Below are positions 1,295 to 25,677 of a DNA stretch of 42,474 nucleotides, one piece after another (positions within the stretch are counted from its first letter, which is position 1; each line of letters starts with the position of its first letter). Under the pieces are notes generated by a model. The model worked only from the letters and a program-made list of their open reading frames with translations, did no database searches and had not been told where the DNA came from. The translations under genes were made by a program, and so were the position numbers. This stretch comes from Armatimonadota bacterium. GTDB lineage: Bacteria > Armatimonadota > Fimbriimonadia > Fimbriimonadales > Fimbriimonadaceae. The stretch is taken from contig JAIOPU010000263.1 in the NCBI GenBank assembly GCA_021413725.1, forward strand, positions 1 through 42,474. Reading direction: 5' to 3'.

Positions 1295-1828
1295 ATGTGG
1301 AATCTTGACAGCGCGATTTTGATCCAAATCGCGCTGAGAACAGCGATCGTCTACGCCCTTTTGCTGATTGGGGTGAGGCTCGCCGGGAAGCGCCAAATCG
1401 GGCAACTCACTCCCTTTGATCTGGTCGTGCTGTTGCTCCTGAGCAACGCCGTGCAAAATGCAATGACTGGCCCGGATACATCAGTGACTGGCGGAATCGT
1501 TGCCGCCGCGACTCTTCTCGTTTGCAACGCCGCGGTAGCATTTGCTCGGACGAAAAGCACCGCTTTTCGACGATGCGTCGAGGGAGTCCCTGTGGTTCTG
1601 ATCTCGCATGGTGAAATCCAACACCGAAACCTTCAGCACGAAGAAATCACGGAAGGTGAACTTCGCGCCAACCTCAGAGAGCATGAGGTCGAAAAGATTG
1701 AAGACGTGGAACTTGCGATGCTCGAAATCGACGGCACCGTCAGCGTCATTCGTAGGGATGGAGCGGCAAGCCAAGGGTTTGTTCACACCCGAAAGAAATA
1801 CCGGCGTCACCACCGAAACTCACAGTAA
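1295..1828 (+). CDS. DUF421 (YetF/YcaP-type) membrane protein
   Basis: A 177-residue integral membrane protein of the DUF421 family. Three hydrophobic segments lie at about residues 8-28, 38-55 and 64-84. They are followed by a cytoplasmic domain carrying the family's typical stretch around 'GVPVVLISHGEIQHRNL' and 'VELAMLEIDGTVSVI'. The conserved LAGKRQIGQLTPFDLVVLLLLSNAVQNAM block after the first helix is the clearest family mark. Biochemical function is unknown; in Bacillus, YetF-type proteins are linked to spores and membrane stress. It follows the preceding gene by 13 bases and ends at a bidirectional hairpin facing the metalloprotease gene. Confidence 0.88.
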   Translation: MWNLDSAILIQIALRTAIVYALLLIGVRLAGKRQIGQLTPFDLVVLLLLSNAVQNAMTGPDTSVTGGIVAAATLLVCNAAVAFARTKSTAFRRCVEGVPVVLISHGEIQHRNLQHEEITEGELRANLREHEVEKIEDVELAMLEIDGTVSVIRRDGAASQGFVHTRKKYRRHHRNSQ

Positions 1829-1838
1829 GTCAAACAAA

Positions 1839-1868
1839 AAAAGGGGCACCCTTTCAGGCACCCCTTTT
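1839..1868. terminator. Bidirectional terminator-like hairpin
   Basis: AAAAGGGG (1839-1846) and CCCCTTTT (1861-1868) form an inverted repeat with a 14-base loop. It lies between the convergent ends of the DUF421 gene (+) and the metalloprotease gene (-). The A-run and T-run on the two sides would give a U-tract in either direction. Confidence 0.6.
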
Positions 1869-1880
1869 CAGACCGTTAGT

Positions 1881-2798
1881 CTACTTGCCGAGTCGGTAGG
1901 TGTTCCAGGCCGCGAGCATTCTCGCTGCCTGACCAGCGGAGAATGTATTCATGCAACTGTCGTCAGTGTAGTCCATGAAGTTTGTGATCGGATCGTTGCC
2001 GGCGATAGATGCACAGCTGTTACGGCCCGCCGGACATCCGAATGCCGCGCTTCGTTCCGCAGGAGTGTCGCTCACGAGGTCACCTCCATTGGTCGCGTTC
2101 TTAGAGCAACCACCTTGGAAAGTGTGATACAAGCCCATCCAGTGCCCCACTTCGTGAGTACCGGTGTCTCCGAGGTTGTAAGGCGCCGCCGTACCGCCTG
2201 GAAGTGAGCTGAACAAAACGACAACACCGTCGTTCTTGGGATTGCCGGTATACGACGAGGGGAATGTCGCCCAACCGAGTAAACCGCCGCCCATATTGTT
2301 CGAGTAGATGTTGAGATCGTCAGCAGTTCCCTGGCGTAGTGCATTCTTCATCTGAGTCTCGCTTGTTCCGCCCGAAGAGGTGTACCACGTTGCATTCGTT
2401 GTTCGATCGGTACTTACCAACGTGAATGCGAAATTGCTGCTTGCGTACGCTGCGTTCAGTACGGAAATCTGGCTCGCGATTGTCGCGTCGGAGACGTTAC
2501 CTTGGCTGGTCGCGGTTCCACTTCGAATCACGTGCCAATAAACGTTAATCGTTGTCACTCCGCCCGCCCTCGTTTGGCCGGTTGCGAAGAGGTCAGCTTC
2601 GACTCTCGCGAGTTCCGTTGCCGAAAGGTCTTGGGTCGCGCATCGAGCATAGTTCGACTTGATGACTTCGATGCCGTTCTCCTCTAATGAAGGGGCCCGA
2701 CCGATAGTTTCAGTGGCTCCATTGCCACCACAGTTCACGAGCACAAGCCCTGCGGCCAAGCTCAACGAGATCATTCCTAACGATTTGATGAGTTTCAT
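1881..2798 (-). CDS. M43-type (cytophagalysin/pappalysin) zinc metalloprotease lipoprotein
   Basis: A secreted zinc metalloprotease of 305 residues. The start chosen is the ATG at 2798. It gives a classic lipoprotein signal peptide (MKLIKSLGM..., then LVNC with the lipid-carrying Cys at residue 23) and a purine-rich GGGAAGAGAAG upstream. An in-frame ATG at 2957 would add a hydrophilic leader before the signal peptide and is unlikely. The zinc site [11 protein letters not shown] begins at residue 215 (His215, Glu216, His219, His225), and a Met-turn NFMDY places Met275 as in metzincins. Cysteines around the site (231, 255, 262, 282) probably form the disulfides usual in M43. Expected location is the periplasm or outer membrane surface. 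It is monocistronic and divergent from rpmB. The substrate cannot be read from sequence. Confidence 0.88.
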
Positions 2799-2955
2799 AA
2801 TGTAATCTTCTCTTCCCATTCCCCAGCCACATTGCCGGGATAAGTCATTATATGCGAATAATTCAAATTCCACTTGGATATTCTTAGGGAAATTCGGGCC
2901 AGACAAGACGCCGACAGATGGGGTATCCTCTGGATCGTATTTCAAGAGGTATCTC

Positions 2956-3222
2956 ATGGCGAAGATTTGTCAAGTTAGCGGAAAAAAGGGTAACCAAGCC
3001 CAACACTGTCGTCACCGACACTCAGCGTGGAAGTTCCGTGCCCCGCACAAGAATAGAGTTCAGGACCCGAATCTCCAGGTCGTAACCATCCAAACCAAGT
3101 TTGGGAAAGTCAGAATGAAGGTCGCCACTTCGGTGATCAAGAGCCCAGAATTTTCAGCGGTCGTCTCTGGCCTCAAGCCGATTCCAAAGGCTTGGCTGAA
3201 GAAACCTTCCTACAACGTCTAA
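2956..3222 (+). CDS. rpmB: Large ribosomal subunit protein L28
   Basis: An 88-residue basic protein with the L28 pattern: [10 protein letters not shown] at the N-terminus, the His-rich [17 protein letters not shown] segment, then PNLQVV, and [16 protein letters not shown] in place of the usual ...ki.v.t..lKs. It is a structural protein of the 50S subunit. AGAGGT at about 2945-2950 is a suitable ribosome binding site. Only one Cys sits in the N-terminal motif and there is no CxxC pair, so this is the zinc-free type. The single-gene unit ends at a near-perfect intrinsic terminator. The C-terminus is longer than in most L28 proteins. Confidence 0.85.
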
Positions 3223-3233
3223 GCGTTTTTATC

Positions 3234-3272
3234 AAAAGAGGCCTGCGAGCAAAACTCGCAGGCCTCTTTTTT
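3234..3272 (+). terminator. Intrinsic terminator of rpmB
   Basis: A 16-bp perfect stem (3234-3249 with 3255-3270) closes a CAAAA loop, and six T residues follow the GC-rich part (3267-3272). Strong rho-independent terminator directly after L28. Confidence 0.92.
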
Positions 3273-3297
3273 GTTGCCCTACGCCCCGACAATAATT

Positions 3298-3325
3298 TTG
3301 TAAACACGTAAAAATGAATTACAAT
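3298..3325 (+). promoter_or_regulatory. Candidate sigma70-type promoter of the PLP enzyme gene
   Basis: TTGTAA (3298-3303) and TACAAT (3320-3325) are 16 bases apart, giving a start site near 3332 and a short leader that holds AGAGGA (3342-3347). TACAAT also serves as the likely -10 of two PEP-CTERM genes in this window. Confidence 0.45.
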
Positions 3326-3359
3326 AGAAGGCAAGAACCACAGAGGACAATCCTTTCCA

Positions 3360-15123: not shown

Positions 15124-17625
15124 TCAGTCCTCCTCTTCTTCACCGGTACGCAAACCGTTCTTGAGTGCTGGCAATGGCGCGTTGCGCCCTTTGATAGCCC
15201 CCCAGAGAATTGCGTTTAGTTTCTCGTCGACTTCGCTCTCCTCCGCGAAACGGCTGATCATCTCACTTTCCCTGGCTCGATACGCTGTCTTTGAGTTAAC
15301 AACCTTGAACACCTCCGGATTAGGCAAAATGGCCTCAAAGGGTTCCGTGTTCAGGGGGGTATTGTCGAAAACACTAATCGGTGATGCCACTGCATCGAAC
15401 TGGCTCATCGGAGGCATTCCAAGAATGATCTCCATGGTACGGAGCATTGAGTCTGTATTGTAGAATCGCGAGTCTAGAATTCCACGCTTGACGTAGGGCG
15501 AAATGACATAGGCCGTGGACCGGTGGGCGTCCACATGGTCAATGCCTGCTTGAGCATCGTCTTCCAGGACACAGATAACAGTGTTTCTCCAGAATTTACT
15601 TCTCGATACCGCTTCAACAAGCTGGCCAACGGCGTAATCGTTGTCGGCCACCATTGCCTCAGGAGACGGTGCCCCAACTCTCGTTCCACTCGTATGGTCA
15701 TTCGGGAATCGCACCATTTGGAAATCGGGCATCTTACCAGCCTTCACGAATCCGTCAAAGTCGGCCTTCCAAGCCGCGAACCGACTCTTAAATCCTTTGA
15801 ATACTTTGACTTGACTAAGAAATGAATGGTTGAGTTTTTCGTACGCCTCTGAGTCCGCGTATGAAAGATCATATCTGCGGAAAGATTCATTGGTTACACC
15901 TTTGAGTAGCTTCTTCGTGGGACCGTTCTCTATCCGTTCCTTAAACACATCGTATCGTTTGTCAAGTGGATCATTGAATTGTGTAAAGAATCCATAATTT
16001 CTAAACGATACGCCATGCTTTTGGCATTGCTCCCAAATATAACCACTCGGCGGACGTGTGACATCGGGGATATCGATCAAATCTACCGGTATACCGTTGT
16101 TGCTTCCCTCAGTGTCGTAATTGCGACCCCGCCCACTATAATTGTAAGGTGTATTTCTGCTTGCGTAAGCGTTAACCATGCCGGCGGTTGACCAGACCCA
16201 TCCGTCTTGCGAAACTTCTGCGCAAACGTGGAAATTATCTAATAGAGCAAAGCGCTCCGCAAGGGCATGTTGATTTGGAGTCACTTTCTGTGGGAATAAA
16301 CATAGGGATGCATCGCCGTTCCCGCGAGCAATATCTCCCAGTACATTATCATAGGTGCGGTTTTCCTTAACAATATAGATAACGTGCTTGATGCCAGGAT
16401 TCTTGAAGTCTGGATGCTTGGGTGATTCTAATCCTTTACGCAGACGGTTGTTCGTGATAACCTGCGCGGTGTGCTTGTCTAAGTCTCCGATGACCGAGAG
16501 ATCGATCTTGGAAACGCACCCGTCAATCACGTCCTGAATGTAAGTGCCCCAATCGTTTACCGGTTTCCCGTTTGGATTTGCGGCTTTGACCCCTTTTGCA
16601 TTCGCAACGAACAGAGTATCGCTCGTCGCTAAAACGCTAGTTGGTAACCAACCTACCGGAAGATACCCCTCCAGTTTGTTACTCCAAGCATTCACAACCG
16701 CTACCGCCATCATATCCTGCAACGCAACATAAACCCATTTGCCATTCGGCGAGACCGTCAATCCGGTGGGACCTGCACCAGGCAAGCCACTCATTGCGAC
16801 CGGGCGCAACATGATCGTCGCAAGAACCTTGTCCGTGGAAGTGTCCACAACTGTGAGTGTGTCACTCCCGTAATTTGAAACGTAGAGTCGGCTAAGATTC
16901 GGGCTGAGAGCCAAGCCTTCTGGATTGGCACCGACTCTTATTTGCCTCAATGCGCGCCGGTTCTGAATATCGACCACATCTACGATATTGTCGCGCTCAC
17001 CTGCAACATAAACCTTTCGATCTTTCCAAATTGTGACGGCGAATGGAAAGGCCGATGTCGAAACCTTTGCCACTTCCTTTCCAGATTCCAGATTCAGAAA
17101 TGAAAGCGAGCCTTTGTAATCGGTGGTATGGGTCGTTTGGTTATTTGCGACGAGCAGTTGAGTTCCGTCTGGAGTGACGGCAAGTCCGGCCGGATGATTC
17201 GGCATGTAACTCCCTTTTAGCGGCTTGTTTGTGAGCGCATCGGCTTTCCTTAAAAGCCGCCGATCTGCGCTGATTTGGTATTGCCCAATCATGTCAGATG
17301 CGCCATGGGAAACGTACAGCGTTTCGCCCGGACCAAAGCTTAGACCGTAGTAAAGGCCACCTTCGGCTACCTTTGCGGGACCATCGTTGGGGAACGGCAA
17401 CTGAGTCACCTTGCCGCTACCAACGTCAATAAGAGAAAGATACTCTCGGAATCCGACCGTGGAGACCACGATTGACTTCCGGTCCGGCGAGAAAATCATG
17501 TTCGAAGGATAGCTACCCACAGAGGTATGGGTACCGAGGGGTGTAATTTTCTTTCCGACGGGAAGCATGTTCGGGGAGTCGTCAGCGGCAAATGATAAGG
17601 CTAAGGATAGAGCGACCAAGACCAT
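15124..17625 (-). CDS. YncE-type beta-propeller fused to a phosphoesterase (alkaline phosphatase superfamily) domain
   Basis: An 833-residue exported protein in two halves. After a signal peptide (MVLVALSLALSFA), residues about 35-400 form YVTN/YncE-type propeller repeats (GLALSPNLSRLYVSNYGSDTLTVVDTSTDKVLA; GLTVSPNGKWVYVA). Residues about 415-800 match the phosphoesterase/phospholipase C-acid phosphatase family: HVIYIVKENRTYDNVLGDI, then EDDAQAGIDHVDAHRSTAYVISPYVKRG with metal-binding Asp and His residues. This is the known 'bifunctional YncE/alkaline phosphatase family' architecture. Probable role is periplasmic or surface hydrolysis of phosphate esters; the substrate is unknown. Convergent with the Gly/Ser-rich gene, and its start lies near the PEP-CTERM terminator. 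Confidence 0.9.
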   Translation of the reverse strand: MVLVALSLALSFAADDSPNMLPVGKKITPLGTHTSVGSYPSNMIFSPDRKSIVVSTVGFREYLSLIDVGSGKVTQLPFPNDGPAKVAEGGLYYGLSFGPGETLYVSHGASDMIGQYQISADRRLLRKADALTNKPLKGSYMPNHPAGLAVTPDGTQLLVANNQTTHTTDYKGSLSFLNLESGKEVAKVSTSAFPFAVTIWKDRKVYVAGERDNIVDVVDIQNRRALRQIRVGANPEGLALSPNLSRLYVSNYGSDTLTVVDTSTDKVLATIMLRPVAMSGLPGAGPTGLTVSPNGKWVYVALQDMMAVAVVNAWSNKLEGYLPVGWLPTSVLATSDTLFVANAKGVKAANPNGKPVNDWGTYIQDVIDGCVSKIDLSVIGDLDKHTAQVITNNRLRKGLESPKHPDFKNPGIKHVIYIVKENRTYDNVLGDIARGNGDASLCLFPQKVTPNQHALAERFALLDNFHVCAEVSQDGWVWSTAGMVNAYASRNTPYNYSGRGRNYDTEGSNNGIPVDLIDIPDVTRPPSGYIWEQCQKHGVSFRNYGFFTQFNDPLDKRYDVFKERIENGPTKKLLKGVTNESFRRYDLSYADSEAYEKLNHSFLSQVKVFKGFKSRFAAWKADFDGFVKAGKMPDFQMVRFPNDHTSGTRVGAPSPEAMVADNDYAVGQLVEAVSRSKFWRNTVICVLEDDAQAGIDHVDAHRSTAYVISPYVKRGILDSRFYNTDSMLRTMEIILGMPPMSQFDAVASPISVFDNTPLNTEPFEAILPNPEVFKVVNSKTAYRARESEMISRFAEESEVDEKLNAILWGAIKGRNAPLPALKNGLRTGEEEED

Positions 17626-17714: not shown

Positions 17715-18437
17715 TCAAACTACCTTGCGTCGCCGTCTGGCAACTACCAGGGCGGATACGACACCAAGGGCAAGTAGGCTTGCTGGCTCTGGAACTGCCG
17801 TGATTTGGTCCTGAATGTTTGGGTCGCTCAGTAACAGTAATTGCTGTCGCGATGAGGCCGCGCCAGAGGCAACTGCGTTCAAGTAACTTTGGGCAAGGAC
17901 CGTAGCCGGGTTCGAGTTCGAAGGAGCAATGTAGATCACGCTGCTAGCATCGGCAAGGTTCAAACTCGTGTCAAACGTCGTCTTCCAGACCGCAAGTTGA
18001 AACGCCGCTGCCGTAGTCGAACTGTTGACGCCGCTCTTAAACGTTCCCCAAAGTCTCTCTAACCGATCAACTTTGACCGCGTCAAAGAAAATCGGACCCG
18101 TAACGCCACCGGTGTTTGTGGACGACCCGAGCAATGTTGTAACGCTAGCGTGTGCCTGATAGGTCGAATTGATCCCTTGGCCAATCTCGACACAATAGCA
18201 GTCATAGGAGGCTGGCTTGCCCAGCAGGGTCGTCAACCCTGCGGATGCATCGGTACCCCTTTCGCCGTGAATAGTGGCAGTATTGATCGTGTGATCTCCA
18301 AGCCAGCCGGGAACATTTGACGTAAGGGTGATGCTTCCCGAATTCGAAAACGTGTAGATAGCGCCCAAGGCAGAGGCCATCGAAATTGCCGACGATGTCG
18401 CCAGTCCGGCGATGATGAGGTACTTCAAAGATTTCAT
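17715..18437 (-). CDS. PEP-CTERM protein with Cys/Gln thioester-like signature
   Basis: A 240-residue exported protein with signal peptide MKSLKYLIIAGLATSSAISMASA and a C-terminal sorting signal AVPEPASLLALGVVSALVVARRRRKVV. The mature part has SYDCYCVEIGQGIN (Cys80, Cys82) and, 65 residues later, AAAFQLAVWKT (Gln147). This Cys ... x-Q-x-A-(I/V)-W arrangement recalls the thioester domains of Gram-positive surface adhesins (YCxD ... TQxAIW). Similar YCV/AFQLAIW pairs occur in other PEP-CTERM proteins. A thioester is inference only. GGGAGA lies just before the ATG, and a GATCCGCC...GCGCGGATGA hairpin sits in the leader. A GTAAAAATAC element lies at 18528. Confidence 0.9.
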   Translation of the reverse strand: MKSLKYLIIAGLATSSAISMASALGAIYTFSNSGSITLTSNVPGWLGDHTINTATIHGERGTDASAGLTTLLGKPASYDCYCVEIGQGINSTYQAHASVTTLLGSSTNTGGVTGPIFFDAVKVDRLERLWGTFKSGVNSSTTAAAFQLAVWKTTFDTSLNLADASSVIYIAPSNSNPATVLAQSYLNAVASGAASSRQQLLLLSDPNIQDQITAVPEPASLLALGVVSALVVARRRRKVV

Positions 18438-18527
18438 AAATGTCTCCCTTTCATCCGCGCAAACGGCGGATCAACTTAATTAATCGTAGAAAAATTGCCT
18501 TTCTGTGACAATAATACTGGCAGTCCA

Positions 18528-18537
18528 GTAAAAATAC
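18528..18537 (-). promoter_or_regulatory. GTAAAAATAC element upstream of the third PEP-CTERM gene
   Basis: CCCGTATTTTTACTGG on the coding strand, 91 bases before the start codon. It shares the ten-base core with the sites at 5572 and 6725. The surrounding leader is otherwise different from theirs, so this core is not conserved merely by recent duplication. Confidence 0.5.
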
Positions 18538-18611
18538 GGGGCGCAATTTTCATCGGGCGTTCATCTCGCCATCAGGTCCTTGTCAGATCGCAAACTTACA
18601 ATATTTAGGAA

Positions 18612-18626
18612 AGGAGAAATTCTCCT
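18612..18626. promoter_or_regulatory. Perfect palindrome AGGAGAAATTCTCCT before the DUF4331 gene
   Basis: Seven bases on each side of a central A, directly next to the ribosome binding site (AGAGGA, 18627-18632). It could be an operator for a dimeric repressor, or a small RNA hairpin affecting translation. TACAAT at about 18597-18602 lies just upstream and may be the -10. Confidence 0.45.
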
Positions 18627-18638
18627 AGAGGAAATATC

Positions 18639-19316
18639 GTGACCAATCTCACTAAAAAACTAACATTCATCGGCCTCGGCCTCATTCCGGTCATCTTGAT
18701 CGGGGTCGCCAAGGCGTCAGACCATGCTGACACTCCCGATATCGCAGCCAACCCAGGTTCAGACCTGACTGACGTTTACATCTTCCCAAGCCCAACCAAT
18801 CCGGACAATGTCGTTCTCGCAATGAACGTTCATCCCCTGATAGGCCCGGGACAAGGTCCTGCGGCATCCTTTGATCCGAACATCTTGTATCAATTCAAAA
18901 TCGATACCAACGGTGACGGTTTTGAAGATAAGGTCATTCAAGCGAAGTTCACGGGAACGGGCACTAGTCAGACGGTGCAAATCGCAGGCCCAATATCTCC
19001 ATCCTCCCCTGGGACGACGAGCCGATTCGAAACTCCGAACTTTACAAAAGGGCGGATCAACACAACGTTCTTTCCCACCCCAGGAATGAACGTTTTCTGT
19101 GGCGCACGAGAGGACTCGTTCTTCTTCGACTTGGATCAATTCTTCAAGATATTCCCGGATCGGGCAACTCCTCTCACAGGCACGCCGGTCTCGGATCCTA
19201 ACACGCCGAAAGATACGGGTTGGCGCGCTCCAGGCGCCGCAGTTGATTTTCTTTCCGCCGGCCAGTACAACGTCCTGTCCATCGTCATCGAACTCCCAAG
19301 GAAGTCACTTTTATGA
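18639..19316 (+). CDS. DUF4331 family protein, N-terminal half only (exported)
   Basis: A 225-residue exported protein starting with GTG (AGAGGA six bases upstream). The signal peptide ends near VAKA, and the mature protein begins SDHADTPDIAANPGSDLTDVYIFPSPTNPDNVVLAMNVHP, the standard opening of DUF4331 proteins (S-HREAP...D-TD-YaF-SPd-PdtV). YQFKIDTNGDGFED is the usual Asp-rich loop; DSFFFDLDQFF also fits. It stops after NVLSIVIELPRKSLL, exactly where family members continue with a short linker into (I)GVWTTASR. The remainder of the domain is the next gene, whose ATG overlaps this TGA (ATGA at 19313-19316). Function of DUF4331 is unknown. Confidence 0.87.
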   Translation: MTNLTKKLTFIGLGLIPVILIGVAKASDHADTPDIAANPGSDLTDVYIFPSPTNPDNVVLAMNVHPLIGPGQGPAASFDPNILYQFKIDTNGDGFEDKVIQAKFTGTGTSQTVQIAGPISPSSPGTTSRFETPNFTKGRINTTFFPTPGMNVFCGAREDSFFFDLDQFFKIFPDRATPLTGTPVSDPNTPKDTGWRAPGAAVDFLSAGQYNVLSIVIELPRKSLL

Positions 19317-19927
19317 AAACTTTACTCAAATCTATCGCCATTCTCACGCCTGCAATCTTCCTCGCTGGTTGCGGTGGCTCGTCCAACAGCAATCCCGGTC
19401 CAAGCCTAGGTGTTATTGGAGTCTGGGCAACGACCAGTCGGGCATCGGGACTGAACTATCTGCAAGTAGACCGACTTTCAAGACCTGTCATTAATGAGGT
19501 CTTCGCCACTGTGGCGAATAATCGCCACAAGATTAATGACGAAATCAGTCCCAGCGAGGACAAGAATGAACTCGCAAATGACATTGAGTCGTTTATGACG
19601 TTCCCGGCAGGCCGCTCGGCGGCAACGACTGCAGTGGTTAAGGCTGTGATCATTCCTGACGTGATGAAAGTTGACCTCAGAGAAAGTGGCAATGCGGCTT
19701 ACCTCGGGGTAGAAACTGGCGGCGCTACTGGCGGCAAGTTCGGCGGACGTGCTCTTACCGATGATGTGGTCGACACATCCCTTGGAATTGTCTTCGGAAA
19801 TACGATTTCCGCACTCGGGCTTGCCCCTGATGACGGAAAAGAGCTTCCAACATTCACGACGGATAACGTCGGCGCTGACGGAAAGCACTTCACCAGTACA
19901 TTCCCGTACCTTGGCGCCCCGCGCTAA
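19313..19927 (+). CDS. DUF4331 family protein, C-terminal half, as a separate lipoprotein
   Basis: A 204-residue protein with its own lipoprotein signal MKTLLKSIAILTPAIFLAGC (Cys20) and a Gly/Ser/Asn linker. The body is the C-terminal half of DUF4331: IGVWATTSR, YLQVDRLSRPVINEVF, SPSEDKNELANDI (family: ppreDk-rF), then GGRALTDDVVDTSL (family: NGRRl-DDVvd-el) and a closing FTSTFPYLGAPR. Its start overlaps the stop of the N-terminal half by four bases in another frame. It is probably tethered to a membrane and could complement the upstream half. See findings. Confidence 0.85.
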   Translation: MKTLLKSIAILTPAIFLAGCGGSSNSNPGPSLGVIGVWATTSRASGLNYLQVDRLSRPVINEVFATVANNRHKINDEISPSEDKNELANDIESFMTFPAGRSAATTAVVKAVIIPDVMKVDLRESGNAAYLGVETGGATGGKFGGRALTDDVVDTSLGIVFGNTISALGLAPDDGKELPTFTTDNVGADGKHFTSTFPYLGAPR

Positions 19928-19974: not shown

Positions 19975-21321
19975 ATGAATCTCACTTCTACCTTTGTTCT
20001 CGGGTCCGCCGTTGCCGTCGCGGGATGGGTAGGCTACACTGCCTTCCACCGTCCGATGCCTTCGAACACTTTCGAACCCATCGTCCATGCGCCGTTCGAT
20101 TCCAATTTGATCGCACTGCAGATCAAAGGTTGCGAAGCGGCGGTCAAGGCTGATCCTCGAGGCGCCTTAGGATTTTCGTTACTCGCTTCGGCATATTTGA
20201 ATCAAAGTCGAGAGTCCGACGACTATGCGACTGCGGTTAAGGCAGAGGTCGCCGCGCGGAAAAGTCTTGAGCTGAGAAAGTTAGGTAACCAAGGGGCTTT
20301 TAACAAACTGACCTCGAGCCTTTTGCAACAGCACCGATTCAAGGAAGCTCTGGCCGCAGCCAATGATGCTTTCAAGCAAGTAATTTTCGACGATCAAACG
20401 ATCCGGCTCCAGGCAGACTGCAATATCGAAATCGGGAACTACGCCAAGGCTCAATTGATTATCGATGCCAATCCACGAGCCTTCTCAACTTCGCCTGGTA
20501 TGGCAATCAAGGCTCATTTGCTTGATATTTACGGTTCCCCGGTTAAGGCAGCACAGGTCTTGCGGAGTGCGCTTTATGAAGCAGAACAGTCGCCCGCAAT
20601 CCCAGGCAATGCACTCGCATGGTTTCATGTCCGCCTCGCCGCCCAACTTGCCAAGAACGGCAATCACGACGAAGCGCGGAGTGAATTCCATGCCGCCCTC
20701 ACGCTGTACCCTCGCGATTACAAGGCGATGGCGGGTCTCGCGAAGCTCGGCTTCCAAGGTGGTCACCTCAAAGAAGCAATCGACTGGGGCAAAAAGTCCG
20801 ACGAAATCGCACCGATGGCAGACGTTCGTGCCGTCGTCGGAGATGCCTATTTTGTTTCGGGAGACAAAGCAAATGCGGATCAACAGTATGATATGGTTAC
20901 CGAATTAACGGGGCGAACTCACACGCACCCACTTTCTGGTGGCACCTCCTTCTCGCAGTCCACCCATGGTCATCCCTTGGATCGGCAGTACGCAATCTTT
21001 TGCGCCGACCACGCCCAAGACCCAATCGGTGCCCTTGCCGCGGCAAAGCGTGATTTGGCGGACCGAAAGGATATCTACGCCTTCGATGCCTTGGCCTGGG
21101 TTCTGCACCGAAATGGCAAAGCGACCGAAGCAAAAACAAGTATCGAGCGCGCTTTAGCAACCGGCTCGAAGGACCCGGTTATTCTGTATCACGCGAGTGA
21201 AATCTACCGGTCAATCGGCGACACCGCCAAGGCCAAAAAGGTTCGTGACCTCGTACTCAGCATCGACCCCACCGTGATCAAGCCTGAAATCGGGCACTCC
21301 CATACAGCAAAGGACAAGTAA
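19975..21321 (+). CDS. Tetratricopeptide repeat protein of the DUF4331 locus
   Basis: A 448-residue alpha-solenoid protein. An N-terminal hydrophobic segment (about 5-25, FVLGSAVAVAGWVGYTAF) suggests a membrane anchor or signal. TPR-like helices run from about residue 55 to 430, clearest at NGNHDEARSEFHAALTLYPRDYKAMAGLAKLGFQGGHLKEAIDWGKKS, DKANADQQYDMV and NGKATEAKTSIERALATG. A His-rich stretch (THTHPLSGGTSFSQSTHGHPLD, about 325-346) interrupts the repeats. TPR proteins often neighbour DUF4331 genes, so a shared role is likely though unknown. The C-terminus ends in HSHTAKDK. Confidence 0.87.
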   Translation: MNLTSTFVLGSAVAVAGWVGYTAFHRPMPSNTFEPIVHAPFDSNLIALQIKGCEAAVKADPRGALGFSLLASAYLNQSRESDDYATAVKAEVAARKSLELRKLGNQGAFNKLTSSLLQQHRFKEALAAANDAFKQVIFDDQTIRLQADCNIEIGNYAKAQLIIDANPRAFSTSPGMAIKAHLLDIYGSPVKAAQVLRSALYEAEQSPAIPGNALAWFHVRLAAQLAKNGNHDEARSEFHAALTLYPRDYKAMAGLAKLGFQGGHLKEAIDWGKKSDEIAPMADVRAVVGDAYFVSGDKANADQQYDMVTELTGRTHTHPLSGGTSFSQSTHGHPLDRQYAIFCADHAQDPIGALAAAKRDLADRKDIYAFDALAWVLHRNGKATEAKTSIERALATGSKDPVILYHASEIYRSIGDTAKAKKVRDLVLSIDPTVIKPEIGHSHTAKDK

Positions 21322-21927: not shown

Positions 21928-23097
21928 TCAAGGCTTAACAAAATCTTTAAACTCGGTCTTTGTGGCCAACAAAATCTCCTTCAACGCCGCCCGATCACCC
22001 GCCGACAGATGCGAGAATCTCCCCGAAGAATCTTTCCCATCCAGAATCTCCGCAAACCGACGCCAAATCTGATCGCGGACGATCTTCGGAAGAGCTTCAA
22101 AGGACCGCGAATAGATCAGTGGGCTGCACGGGTACTTGAACAACCGGGTCTTGAGGTCAAGTTCGCTCAAGGATCGCCCCGCAGAATCCTTCGGAGTCGT
22201 CAACGCAAAAGCTTCCGCAAACCCACTCGTCCCCTTCATCGGTGCAGAGAGCCGAGTCTCTCCCGAGCACAACAAAGCTCGGATCAAGAGTTCACAATCC
22301 GTCGCCCTTACCTCACGCATGTCGCGATAGTCCAAAGCGAGTTGGGACAAAACATTCTGCACGTACATCTGGTGCTCCATCACCATCAAAGCCGCGATGT
22401 CCGAATGCGGAGTGAGGTGGCGCTTGGGGTTAAAGTAACGCTTCAAGTCCGTGACATTGGCGCCTTTTTCCGTATTCAGCTTGGGTTTTTCGTCGTCGCC
22501 TGTCGAAATCTCGTTCCCCATGTGACGCTGAGCGCCATGAGTGCCGGTGACATACCAACCGCCCCAACGTTGCTCAATCGGCGTCTTCGAAGTCACATCC
22601 ACGCTCACCGAAAACACTCGCGGGTAACCGCTTTCGGGGATATAAGAGGACTCCACGAACAAACTCGCAGGCTGCTGCAAATATCTTCCGCCGTGGCAAC
22701 GTTGGCATCGCTGGTCCTCCTCTTGGAACCGCATCAGCTTCTTCGTGTTCGGCAAAGTGTAGTACTGCGCGCCGAGCTTCGGGTCCACGCTCATGATCTC
22801 AATCATCGGCGCGTCGGGTATCCAGGCGACGTAAGTGTCCTGGTTGAAGTAAATCGCGCGCGGCGTTTTGCGAGTGATGTGGTCTGTTTGGAGGCTGGAC
22901 TTGGAGAACACCAGAACCTGCGACTTGGGATCAATGTTGAGCTTTTTCAGCAGGTCGTCAAGGTAACCCCGCTGGGCGTTGAAGGCTAACTTCTCTTTGC
23001 TTGCGATCAGGCTTGCAATCGGATCGGTGCTGGTGCGAGGTTGATAGATCGCGCCGAAACAAAGTGCTGCCGAAGGAATAAGGATAAGTGCTTTCAT
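21928..23097 (-). CDS. Exported protein with a single CXXCH heme-binding motif
   Basis: A 389-residue protein I do not recognise beyond its heme site. The N-terminus MKALILIPSAALCFGAIY is a signal peptide. EEDQRCQRCHGGRYL contains one c-type heme motif (Cys131, Cys134, His135), so it is probably a periplasmic cytochrome c-like or heme-containing enzyme. No second CXXCH is present. Flanking text such as YPRVFSVSVDVTSKTPIEQRWGGWYVTGTHGAQRHMGNE and NPKRHLTPHSDIAALMVMEHQMYVQNVL is His-rich and may supply the distal ligand. Its ATG overlaps the stop of the CoA transferase gene (ATGA), implying coupled translation. Confidence 0.82.
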   Translation of the reverse strand: MKALILIPSAALCFGAIYQPRTSTDPIASLIASKEKLAFNAQRGYLDDLLKKLNIDPKSQVLVFSKSSLQTDHITRKTPRAIYFNQDTYVAWIPDAPMIEIMSVDPKLGAQYYTLPNTKKLMRFQEEDQRCQRCHGGRYLQQPASLFVESSYIPESGYPRVFSVSVDVTSKTPIEQRWGGWYVTGTHGAQRHMGNEISTGDDEKPKLNTEKGANVTDLKRYFNPKRHLTPHSDIAALMVMEHQMYVQNVLSQLALDYRDMREVRATDCELLIRALLCSGETRLSAPMKGTSGFAEAFALTTPKDSAGRSLSELDLKTRLFKYPCSPLIYSRSFEALPKIVRDQIWRRFAEILDGKDSSGRFSHLSAGDRAALKEILLATKTEFKDFVKP

Positions 23098-24368
23098 TTG
23101 AATCTCTCTGCCGCCTCACGCTCCAAACTCTCGCGATGGTCGGGATGGGCGATGGCGATCAGGGCCTTTGCGCGCTGGCGCAAGGACTTGCCGTAGAGAT
23201 CGGCAACGCCGAATTCCGTAACTATATAGTGTACGTGTGCACGGGTCGTAACCACTCCCGCGCCCGGTTTCAGCATTCCGACAATTCGCGATTCCCCGCG
23301 CTTCGTTCGGGAGGGCAGGGCGATGATTGGCTTTCCGCCGGCGGAATACATCGCACCTCGGATAAAGTCCATCTGGCCGCCGACGCCGGAGTAGAGGCGA
23401 GTGCCGATGGAGTCGGCGCAGACTTGCCCCGTGATATCCACCTCGATCGCCGAGTTGATCGCGGTGACCTTGGGGTTCCGGCGAATGACGGCGGTGTCGT
23501 TCACATAGGCCGCGTCCAGCATCGCAACGAGCGGATTGTCGTCCAGAAAGTCGTACACACGCTTCGTTCCGAGAACGAATGTCGCCACAATTTTGCCCGC
23601 GTGGACCCGCTTGGCGGCCCCTGTCACCGCGCCGCATTCGACGAGGTCAATGAGGCCGTCGGAGAACATCTCCGTGTGGATTCCCAGGTTCTTGTGCGAT
23701 TTCAACGCCCGCAGAACGGCGTCGGGGACGCCGCCGATTCCCATTTGCAGAGTCGCGCCGTCTTCGATCAGTCCCGCGCAGTGCTGTCCAATCGCGATTT
23801 CGTCCGCGCCGGCGATGGGGAGGTTGATTTCGTGCAATGGTTCGTCGTGTTCGACAAAAGCGGTGAGTTGGCTGACATGGATCAGGCCGTCGCCGTGACT
23901 GCGCGGCATCGAGTGGTTGACCTGCGCGATCACGTGTTTTGCGGTTTGAACGGCGGCGCGAGTTGCTTCGATCGAAACCCCAAGCGAGCAGAAGCCGTGC
24001 TTATCGGGCGGGGAAACCTGGATCAAAACCGCGTCAAGAGGCAGGATTTTGTTTCGAAAGAGGGCGGGGACTTCGCTGAGGAAGACGGGAACGTAGTCGG
24101 CGCGGCCCTCATCGACCGCCTTCCGGACATTCGCCCCGACAAAAAGCGCATGAACCCGAAAGCTCTCGCGCATCTCCGGCTCGGCGTAAGGAGCGGCTCC
24201 TTCGGTGTGGAGTTGCACGATTTCAACATCGCGAAGCTCCTCCGACCGGGCGGTCATCGCCTTGATCAGAGCCTGCGGAGCAGCGGCGATTCCGTGAATA
24301 TAAACCCGATTGCCGCTGGAGATAAGGGAGACCGCTTCTGCGGCTGAGACTGCTTTCGGGTTCAACAT
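23094..24368 (-). CDS. Acetyl-CoA hydrolase/transferase family CoA transferase (4-hydroxybutyrate CoA-transferase-like)
   Basis: A 424-residue CoA transferase that swaps CoA between acyl-CoA and a short organic acid such as acetate or 4-hydroxybutyrate. Key marks are GNRVYIHGIAAAPQALIKAM (N-terminal nucleotide-type loop), VLIQVSPPDKHGFCSLGVS, GATLQMGIGGVPDAVL, and LGIHTEMFSDGLIDLVECGAVTG holding the catalytic Glu of the family. VCADSIGTRLYSGVGGQMDFIRGA is the CoA-binding block, followed by IVTEFGVADLYGKSL. The start at 24368 (MLNPKAVSAAEAV) lies after the stop of the preceding gene (24403), making it preferable to the in-frame start at 24467 inside that gene. Length matches the family. Coupled to the CXXCH gene. 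Confidence 0.92.
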   Translation of the reverse strand: MLNPKAVSAAEAVSLISSGNRVYIHGIAAAPQALIKAMTARSEELRDVEIVQLHTEGAAPYAEPEMRESFRVHALFVGANVRKAVDEGRADYVPVFLSEVPALFRNKILPLDAVLIQVSPPDKHGFCSLGVSIEATRAAVQTAKHVIAQVNHSMPRSHGDGLIHVSQLTAFVEHDEPLHEINLPIAGADEIAIGQHCAGLIEDGATLQMGIGGVPDAVLRALKSHKNLGIHTEMFSDGLIDLVECGAVTGAAKRVHAGKIVATFVLGTKRVYDFLDDNPLVAMLDAAYVNDTAVIRRNPKVTAINSAIEVDITGQVCADSIGTRLYSGVGGQMDFIRGAMYSAGGKPIIALPSRTKRGESRIVGMLKPGAGVVTTRAHVHYIVTEFGVADLYGKSLRQRAKALIAIAHPDHRESLEREAAERFK

Positions 24369-24402
24369 CAGGTTCAATTTTACCCGAAATGAGCCTGGAT
24401 CG

Positions 24403-25677
24403 TTACTTCGTGACGGGCTTTGGCTTGGGCGGGAAAGTAAGGCGGAAAATGCGACCGTCTTCGCCACCCGAGTCTCTTATTGCCACTTCCAGGCGCTCTC
24501 CGTCGAACGCATACTGCATCGGCGACCCGTCAATCGGGCTTCGCAGATCACGAAGATCAAGACTCGAAGGAATCACCGGCTCCCGCAACGCCCGCAGCAC
24601 TCCGCGATATGCAAGGCGCTTCGCACGGTCCCGAAGGACGAACCCATACGGATCTTCCTGTAGGCTGCCAAGAGCTTCCGTCAGAACCATTGCAGATGGA
24701 AACTTCGCTAACCCCTTGAATAACCTCAGTTTAGACTCCCCGTTCTTACGCAAAGACTGCGGTCCAGGATGAACAATCTCATGCCAGAGTGAGCGTGATT
24801 CGCGTACGATGGTCAGCTTTGCTTGAGCCTCGGTCATATTTCTCGTGACATAGGTCATAAGTGCGACTCCGAATGTCTGGTCCTTATCATCTTCGAGGGT
24901 CAGTCCAACTTTCGCTCTCCCTTCTTTTGTTCGACAAAGCTCAATCGTCGACAAAAGTTCGACCAGCGAGAATCGGTACATGGATTTCAGATCGGGTGGC
25001 GCGATCGCGGACATGGAGCGTTGCAAGGCTTTCGTAAACTCAGCGTGACCATGGTAGCGGAAGGCAAGGGCGGCCAAATTTCGCCAAATTATCGAAGTGA
25101 TCGAGTTCGCTACGAGTTGGCTGATAAGAGTGGGTTCTGTTCTGATGTGCCTCTCGATCCGCTCCGCCTGCTCTGCCGCAAGAATTGCATCCCCAAATCG
25201 CCCTTCCGCCGCCGCAACGTTCCCTCGAAGGAGAACTAGTTGCGCGCCATTCTTTAGTTCTGTCATTTCCGGAAACAATACTGCGGCACCGAGACTCCAG
25301 TCCCGCTCAAATCTACAGGAAAACCGAGACGCTGTGTCAATAAGGGCAAGCTCACGCTCTTTGGACCTAAGAAACTCTTTTGCTCGACCAATGCTAAGCG
25401 GATCATAGATGGAGTCGCTAAGCAGGGTTAAAGGCATCCACGATCGCGGCCTGATTTTCGTCAGTTGCAAGTAGTAGGTCGCAGCATTCTCACCCAATAT
25501 CTTCGCAGGCAAGTATTTCTCAAACTCCGCCGCCGTCGTCGGCAGACCCTCGCTCGCGGCAAGCTGAAGCTCCTGCTCCAACGCCATCGCATGCTTATCC
25601 GCACCCTTCGCCGAAACCGGCGCGGCAAGAACGCACAACCCCGCAAGAAGTGAAAAACGCAATGCCAGACGGCTCAT
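24403..25677 (-). CDS. Exported hypothetical protein
   Basis: A 424-residue protein with a clear signal peptide (MSRLALRFSLLAGLCVLAAPVSA). I do not recognise a family. The mature part is largely helical: QLAASEGLPTTAAEFEKYLP near the start, then AAEGRFGDAILAAEQAERIERHIRTEPTLISQLVANSITSIIWRNLAAL. A C-terminal beta-like stretch follows (GSPMQYAFDGERLEVAIRDSGG). Similar helical exported proteins with 'P-x-NAA-xYY' openings are common in Planctomycetes and Armatimonadota genomes, usually unnamed. It ends 34 bases before the CoA transferase start, so the three genes 24403-21928 could be one transcript. Confidence 0.8.
   Translation of the reverse strand: MSRLALRFSLLAGLCVLAAPVSAKGADKHAMALEQELQLAASEGLPTTAAEFEKYLPAKILGENAATYYLQLTKIRPRSWMPLTLLSDSIYDPLSIGRAKEFLRSKERELALIDTASRFSCRFERDWSLGAAVLFPEMTELKNGAQLVLLRGNVAAAEGRFGDAILAAEQAERIERHIRTEPTLISQLVANSITSIIWRNLAALAFRYHGHAEFTKALQRSMSAIAPPDLKSMYRFSLVELLSTIELCRTKEGRAKVGLTLEDDKDQTFGVALMTYVTRNMTEAQAKLTIVRESRSLWHEIVHPGPQSLRKNGESKLRLFKGLAKFPSAMVLTEALGSLQEDPYGFVLRDRAKRLAYRGVLRALREPVIPSSLDLRDLRSPIDGSPMQYAFDGERLEVAIRDSGGEDGRIFRLTFPPKPKPVTK

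Follow-up and report, generated by a model that had tools for sequence, protein, structure and literature searches.

The window analysed here, the whole stretch of 42,474 nucleotides, carries two overlapping genes on the plus strand, which encode the proteins P1 and P2 and are followed by a gene for a TPR protein (table 1). P1 starts with the signal sequence MTNLTKKLTFIGLGLIPVILIGVAKA, with cleavage before S (VAKA/SDHADT). P2 starts with MKTLLKSIAILTPAIFLAG, followed by the lipobox C and then by the linker GGSSNSNPGP; it has a good ribosome-binding site, AAGGAAG, located 8 nt ahead of its ATG. Signal peptides were called by eye and from hydropathy rather than with a trained predictor. Lipoproteins were recognized by an n-region, a hydrophobic stretch and the pattern [LVI]-x-[GAS]-C in roughly the first 35 residues, and P2 of the window has LAGC at residue 20. 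Judged from its motif, the DTNGDGFED loop of P1 may bind calcium.

Table 1. Features of the DUF4331 gene pair and of the gene that follows it. Positions refer to the window.
Feature	Position	Strand	Evidence
P1, N-terminal half of DUF4331, exported; 225 aa, start codon GTG, stop codon TGA at 19314-19316	18639-19316	+	PF14224, 2.7e-34, columns 1-219; orthologues in 23 other Armatimonadota genomes
Signal peptide of P1 (Sec type), residues 1-26; mature chain from SDHADT	18639-18716	+	Sequence; SDH start in 24/24
DTNGDGFED loop in P1, resembling the DxNxDGxxD calcium-binding loop	18903-18929	+	Sequence; Asp/Glu positions in 24/24 of the short subtype
Shine-Dalgarno-like AAGGAAG for P2, within the 3' end of P1	19298-19304	+	Sequence
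ATGA, in which the P2 start overlaps the P1 stop	19313-19316	+	Sequence; nearest relative G127 also 4 nt (GTGA)
P2, C-terminal half of DUF4331, a lipoprotein of 204 aa	19313-19927	+	PF14224, 1.4e-18, columns 205-421; orthologues in 23 other genomes
Lipoprotein signal peptide of P2, with lipobox Cys20 (FLAG/C)	19313-19372	+	Sequence; lipobox in 22/22 split P2 proteins
IGVWATTS strand, on P2 here and on P1 in the other break class	19415-19438	+	Comparison; strand in natural-fusion models
YLQVDRL strand, hairpin partner of IGVWATTS, always on P2	19457-19477	+	Comparison and natural-fusion models
TPR protein with N-terminal export/membrane segment, conserved gene after DUF4331	19975-21321	+	TPR_19, 9.8e-14

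The upstream genes are divergent and lie on the minus strand. One encodes a beta-propeller and phosphoesterase protein (15124-17625) and the other a PEP-CTERM protein (17715-18437) with a weak thioester-domain (TED) match of 18.8 bits, below the cut-off. Long open frames on the plus strand at 22009-22989 (326 aa) and 23088-24347 (419 aa) are antisense to the genes at 21928-23097 and 23094-24467, and are probably mechanical.

DUF4331 (PF14224) is the sole family detected by the Pfam scan in P1 and in P2, and each protein exceeds the Pfam gathering cut-off of 27 bits. P1 scores 119.6 bits and aligns to columns 1-98 and about 124-219 of the profile; P2 scores 67.8 bits and aligns to about columns 205-421 of 421. 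The two segments are adjacent, with shared columns restricted to the weakly aligned junction, and P1 and P2 are therefore halves of the domain, not paralogues; a pair of full-length DUF4331 paralogues is ruled out by these profile coordinates. The open reading frames and profile columns bear out the preliminary description of the locus, which had proposed that P1 combines a signal peptide with the N-terminal half of DUF4331, that P2 carries the rest behind a lipoprotein signal and a Gly/Ser/Asn linker, and that the two genes overlap by ATGA. No further DUF4331 match was found by Pfam profile search in the genome to which the window belongs, a draft that is 87.7% complete.

Together, P1 and P2 cover most of PF14224, including both its N- and C-terminal blocks, but these are spread over two proteins, whereas the single-chain relatives that were examined have them joined. 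One-chain members occur in the same families (L004-L007, L068) and in Nostoc (L071), Streptomyces (L072) and Comamonadaceae (L074). P1 and P2 keep the conserved H, D, N-E and GGR..DD..D motifs of these proteins; they differ from them in forming two chains, the second a lipoprotein, and in being shorter, without an insert near columns 98-124 and some smaller pieces. The Streptomyces protein (L072, 4884-6485) ends in a hydrophobic stretch followed by RRRGK and may be membrane-anchored by a different route. In another genome (G084; L067, 3285-4259, minus strand), a 324-aa open frame fuses columns 1-83 of DUF4331 to columns 275-421, the middle being missing; this is either a genuine miniature form or the result of a collapsed assembly.

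To our knowledge, DUF4331 is widespread and without known function, and our literature search returned no paper naming DUF4331 or PF14224. The two-chain, probably lipid-tethered variant described here is new for this known but uncharacterised family.

Conservation of the two-gene arrangement

Some form of DUF4331 is present in 45 of the 291 Armatimonadota genomes, and the short subtype found in the window in 24 of them (search with P2). The short subtype is encoded by two adjacent genes in 22 of these 24 genomes, which represent six families (f1, f6, f10, f11, f12 and f13). P1 and P2 are always neighbours, in constant order and on the same strand, with junction spacings from -4 to +29 nt and with TAA, TGA and TAG all used as stops. 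All 22 split P2 proteins have a start of their own, a hydrophobic segment and a lipobox of the form x-x-G-C, usually with Gly as the next residue. The automatic pick for G168 and G079 was an earlier Cys, and their lipoboxes, VSGC and LAGC, were read from the sequences. The linker between the Cys and the first strand is short, about 10-15 residues in most of the proteins and longer in a few. In the nearest relative, G127, P2 is 77% identical to that of the window. Among close pairs, dN/dS (NG86, pairs with saturated dS left out) is 0.02-0.18 for P1 and 0.02-0.13 for P2. Scans of IMG/VR yielded no further relatives, and phyla beyond Armatimonadota were sampled through plasmid records only.

The two-gene form of DUF4331 is a stable, selected arrangement in 22 genomes; it is neither a disrupted gene nor an artefact of sequencing. 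It had been proposed from the window that the split is stable and does not reflect simple frameshift decay, and its recurrence in 21 other genomes with the lipobox retained, together with purifying selection, supports this view. A premature stop with a chance downstream start, produced by pseudogene decay or by a sequencing or assembly error, might be suspected in a draft genome with so short an overlap, but we give this explanation almost no weight: the other 21 genomes have the split and the lipobox with differing stops and spacings, both P1 and P2 are under purifying selection, and the nearest relative shares the 4-nt overlap. Since the split recurs in these genomes and G127 has an overlap of equal length, a sequencing error at 19314-19316 can in practice be dismissed. 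Programmed frameshifting or stop read-through was also considered and rejected, as the variable stops and gaps leave no conserved slippery site or spacing; a read-through product would also carry a signal peptide in mid-chain. For coupled junctions, it is plausible that the halves are made together in near-equal amounts. The locus offers a clean natural example of gene fission: a signal for export and lipidation was newly gained partway through a domain.

Break sites, natural fusions and history of the split

The split genes fall into two classes according to the position of the break. In class A (the window, G127, G131, G132, G139, G140, G144, G167, G168, G171 and G063), P1 ends near ELPK-x-L-L and P2 opens with the IGVWATTS segment. 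In class B (G101, G099, G068, G081, G082, G013, G087, G062, G061, G079 and G147), IGxWxTTS forms the C-terminus of P1 and P2 opens at FxQxDRL. The break therefore lies in the loop before or in the loop after a single beta strand, IGxWxTTS, which is found on P2 in most Fimbriimonadaceae and in one other genome (G063, family f6), and on P1 elsewhere. The loop after this strand varies in length in canonical single-chain members.

Two Armatimonadota genomes carry natural one-chain fusions of the short subtype, G128 (L013/L062) and G126 (L063), and a short member on a Nostoc plasmid (L071) is also a single chain. The fusions from Nostoc sp. MS1 (WP_224096029.1), L013/L062 and L063 resemble the window in subtype, motifs and the TPR neighbour; NicO is a neighbour of the Nostoc fusion and CbiM of L062. 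They differ from the window in being one chain without a lipobox at the junction, and provide one-chain controls.

A tree was built from 23 Armatimonadota genes, with the fused cyanobacterial gene from Nostoc as an outgroup. G128 is placed in a clade with class-A genes (support 98/98) and G126 beside the class-B gene G147 (support 81/67), and a single clade of the three fused genes (G128, G126 and Nostoc) is rejected (p-AU 0.0074). The fused genes do not group with Nostoc and one of them is nested among split genes, which suggests that the split is old and that re-fusion came later; an early split followed by re-fusions is the simplest reading. It is possible, though we are inclined to doubt it, that a fused ancestor gave rise to the two-chain form on several independent occasions. 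The existence of two break positions, the scattered occurrence of class A, in Fimbriimonadaceae and also in G063 of f6, and the modest to weak support of the deep branches would fit such a history, but it is opposed by the rejection of a fused clade, by the nesting of G128 and by the minimum of three changes required on the tree between split and fused states (six when all three junction states are counted).

Structure and probable reassembly of the halves

The natural fusion in L013 (G128) was modelled as one chain with AlphaFold2, using two alignments, the first with unpaired halves and the second with in-frame read-through rows. The resulting models agreed, and in both the C-terminal half had equally low confidence. 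The N-terminal beta domain is confident, with blocks at pLDDT 80-90. Its last strands comprise residues 186-196, at the end of the P1-type half, and, continuing from these at pLDDT of roughly 65-90, residues 208-219 (IGVWATTS) and 222-229 (FVQMDRL). The C-terminal half is helical and poorly modelled (pLDDT below 50; mean pLDDT of the model 55), which leaves the interface of P1 and P2 unplaced. In these models, both break sites seem to fall inside the N-terminal beta domain rather than at a boundary between domains. Foldseek searches of both models against the PDB gave nothing at E <= 0.001, and a PDB sequence search with the Nostoc fusion gave no match.

Residues common to the short subtype, Nostoc and canonical members are distributed over both proteins: H29, D45 and Y84 in P1, and Q51, R54, N61, E62, D83, R146, D150, D151, D154 and D184 in P2. 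A functional site shared by the two chains is therefore likely, which argues for reassociation. On the basis of the break inside the beta domain and of the conserved acidic and His residues split over the chains, the halves most likely reassociate; as judged from the models of the one-chain fusion, they probably do so with P2 giving the edge strand or strands and the lipid anchor. P1 would be exported through Sec, and P2 would be exported on its own, receive a lipid at Cys20 and be anchored in a membrane. After reassociation in the periplasm, the first strand or strands of P2, just behind the lipid anchor, would complete the sheet of P1 and so tether it.

Export as separate proteins and by different routes would also suit halves that stay apart and have diverged into independent envelope proteins, P1 soluble and P2 a stand-alone lipoprotein. 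We consider this unlikely, because both proteins retain residues of the intact family members, their genes are always adjacent in the same order and on the same strand, the break cuts a beta domain, and one-chain forms (G126, G128) occur among the split ones, as fits a single working unit. The reassociated form that we favour has a proposed mechanical likeness to the donor-strand complementation of pilus subunits, in which a strand of one chain completes the sheet of another; unlike pilus subunits, P1 and P2 come from one ancestral domain. The split shows experimenters where the DUF4331 domain can be cut and which residues sit on which chain, in a form that is probably membrane-tethered.

Gene neighbourhood and a proposed nickel/cobalt role

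The TPR cluster follows DUF4331 in at least 20 loci, and also on plasmids of other phyla. In 11 of the 21 short-subtype loci with sequence in this region, a nickel/cobalt transporter is encoded within two genes after the TPR gene. These are NicO in G081 and G062 (Pfam-scanned cluster representatives) and in G101, G082, G061 and G063 (assigned via sequence cluster), CbiM/CbiQ in G127 and G128 (scanned) and G140 (via cluster), and HupE_UreJ_2 in G013 (scanned) and G068 (via cluster). No such transporter was found upstream of DUF4331 in the stretches read, and no metal riboswitch was matched with Rfam in window positions 18300-18800 or in 16 related loci. Beyond Armatimonadota, transporter neighbours occur in Cyanobacteriota, Actinomycetota and Pseudomonadota: the gene order is similar around the single-chain DUF4331 of Nostoc (NicO), Streptomyces (NicO) and Comamonadaceae (HupE), and that of Rhizobium has a HupE neighbour without TPR.

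From the recurrence of these neighbours across phyla, we regard DUF4331 as a probable accessory of nickel/cobalt transport in the periplasm. Together with the TPR protein, the complex of P1 and P2 would probably serve the transporters as an accessory in the envelope, for example as a metal-binding or delivery factor. The DUF4331-TPR pair may instead serve something else, with the transporters as incidental neighbours: the remaining 10 of the 21 short-subtype loci, the window included, have no such transporter within two genes, and loci in Miltoncostaea and Adhaeribacter have TPR but no annotated transporter nearby. Against this less probable role stands the finding, in four phyla, that three unrelated nickel/cobalt transporter families recur behind either the TPR gene or DUF4331. 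For the nickel/cobalt role there is a parallel in RcnA-RcnB systems, in which an exported accessory protein works alongside a NicO/RcnA transporter; RcnB differs from DUF4331 in being unrelated and single-chain. The neighbourhood points to a specific function that can be put to the test, the handling of nickel/cobalt in the periplasm together with a TPR protein.

Taken as a whole, a stable fission of DUF4331 whose halves reassociate, are tethered by P2 and act with the TPR protein as an accessory of nickel/cobalt transporters is a likely explanation of the locus. We put forward more tentatively its most detailed version, a beta-sheet split by the gain of an internal lipoprotein signal, with a break that hops by one strand, occasional re-fusion, and P2 edge strand(s) tethering P1 in a nickel/cobalt accessory complex.

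In the genome of the window, the HupE_UreJ_2 gene is not adjacent to DUF4331 but lies on another contig (C60). There it adjoins, at 1405-3331 on the minus strand (L075, G000:C60), a gene for a protein with a YHYH-like start (KMAIVAWAADGYPVYGNYGY).
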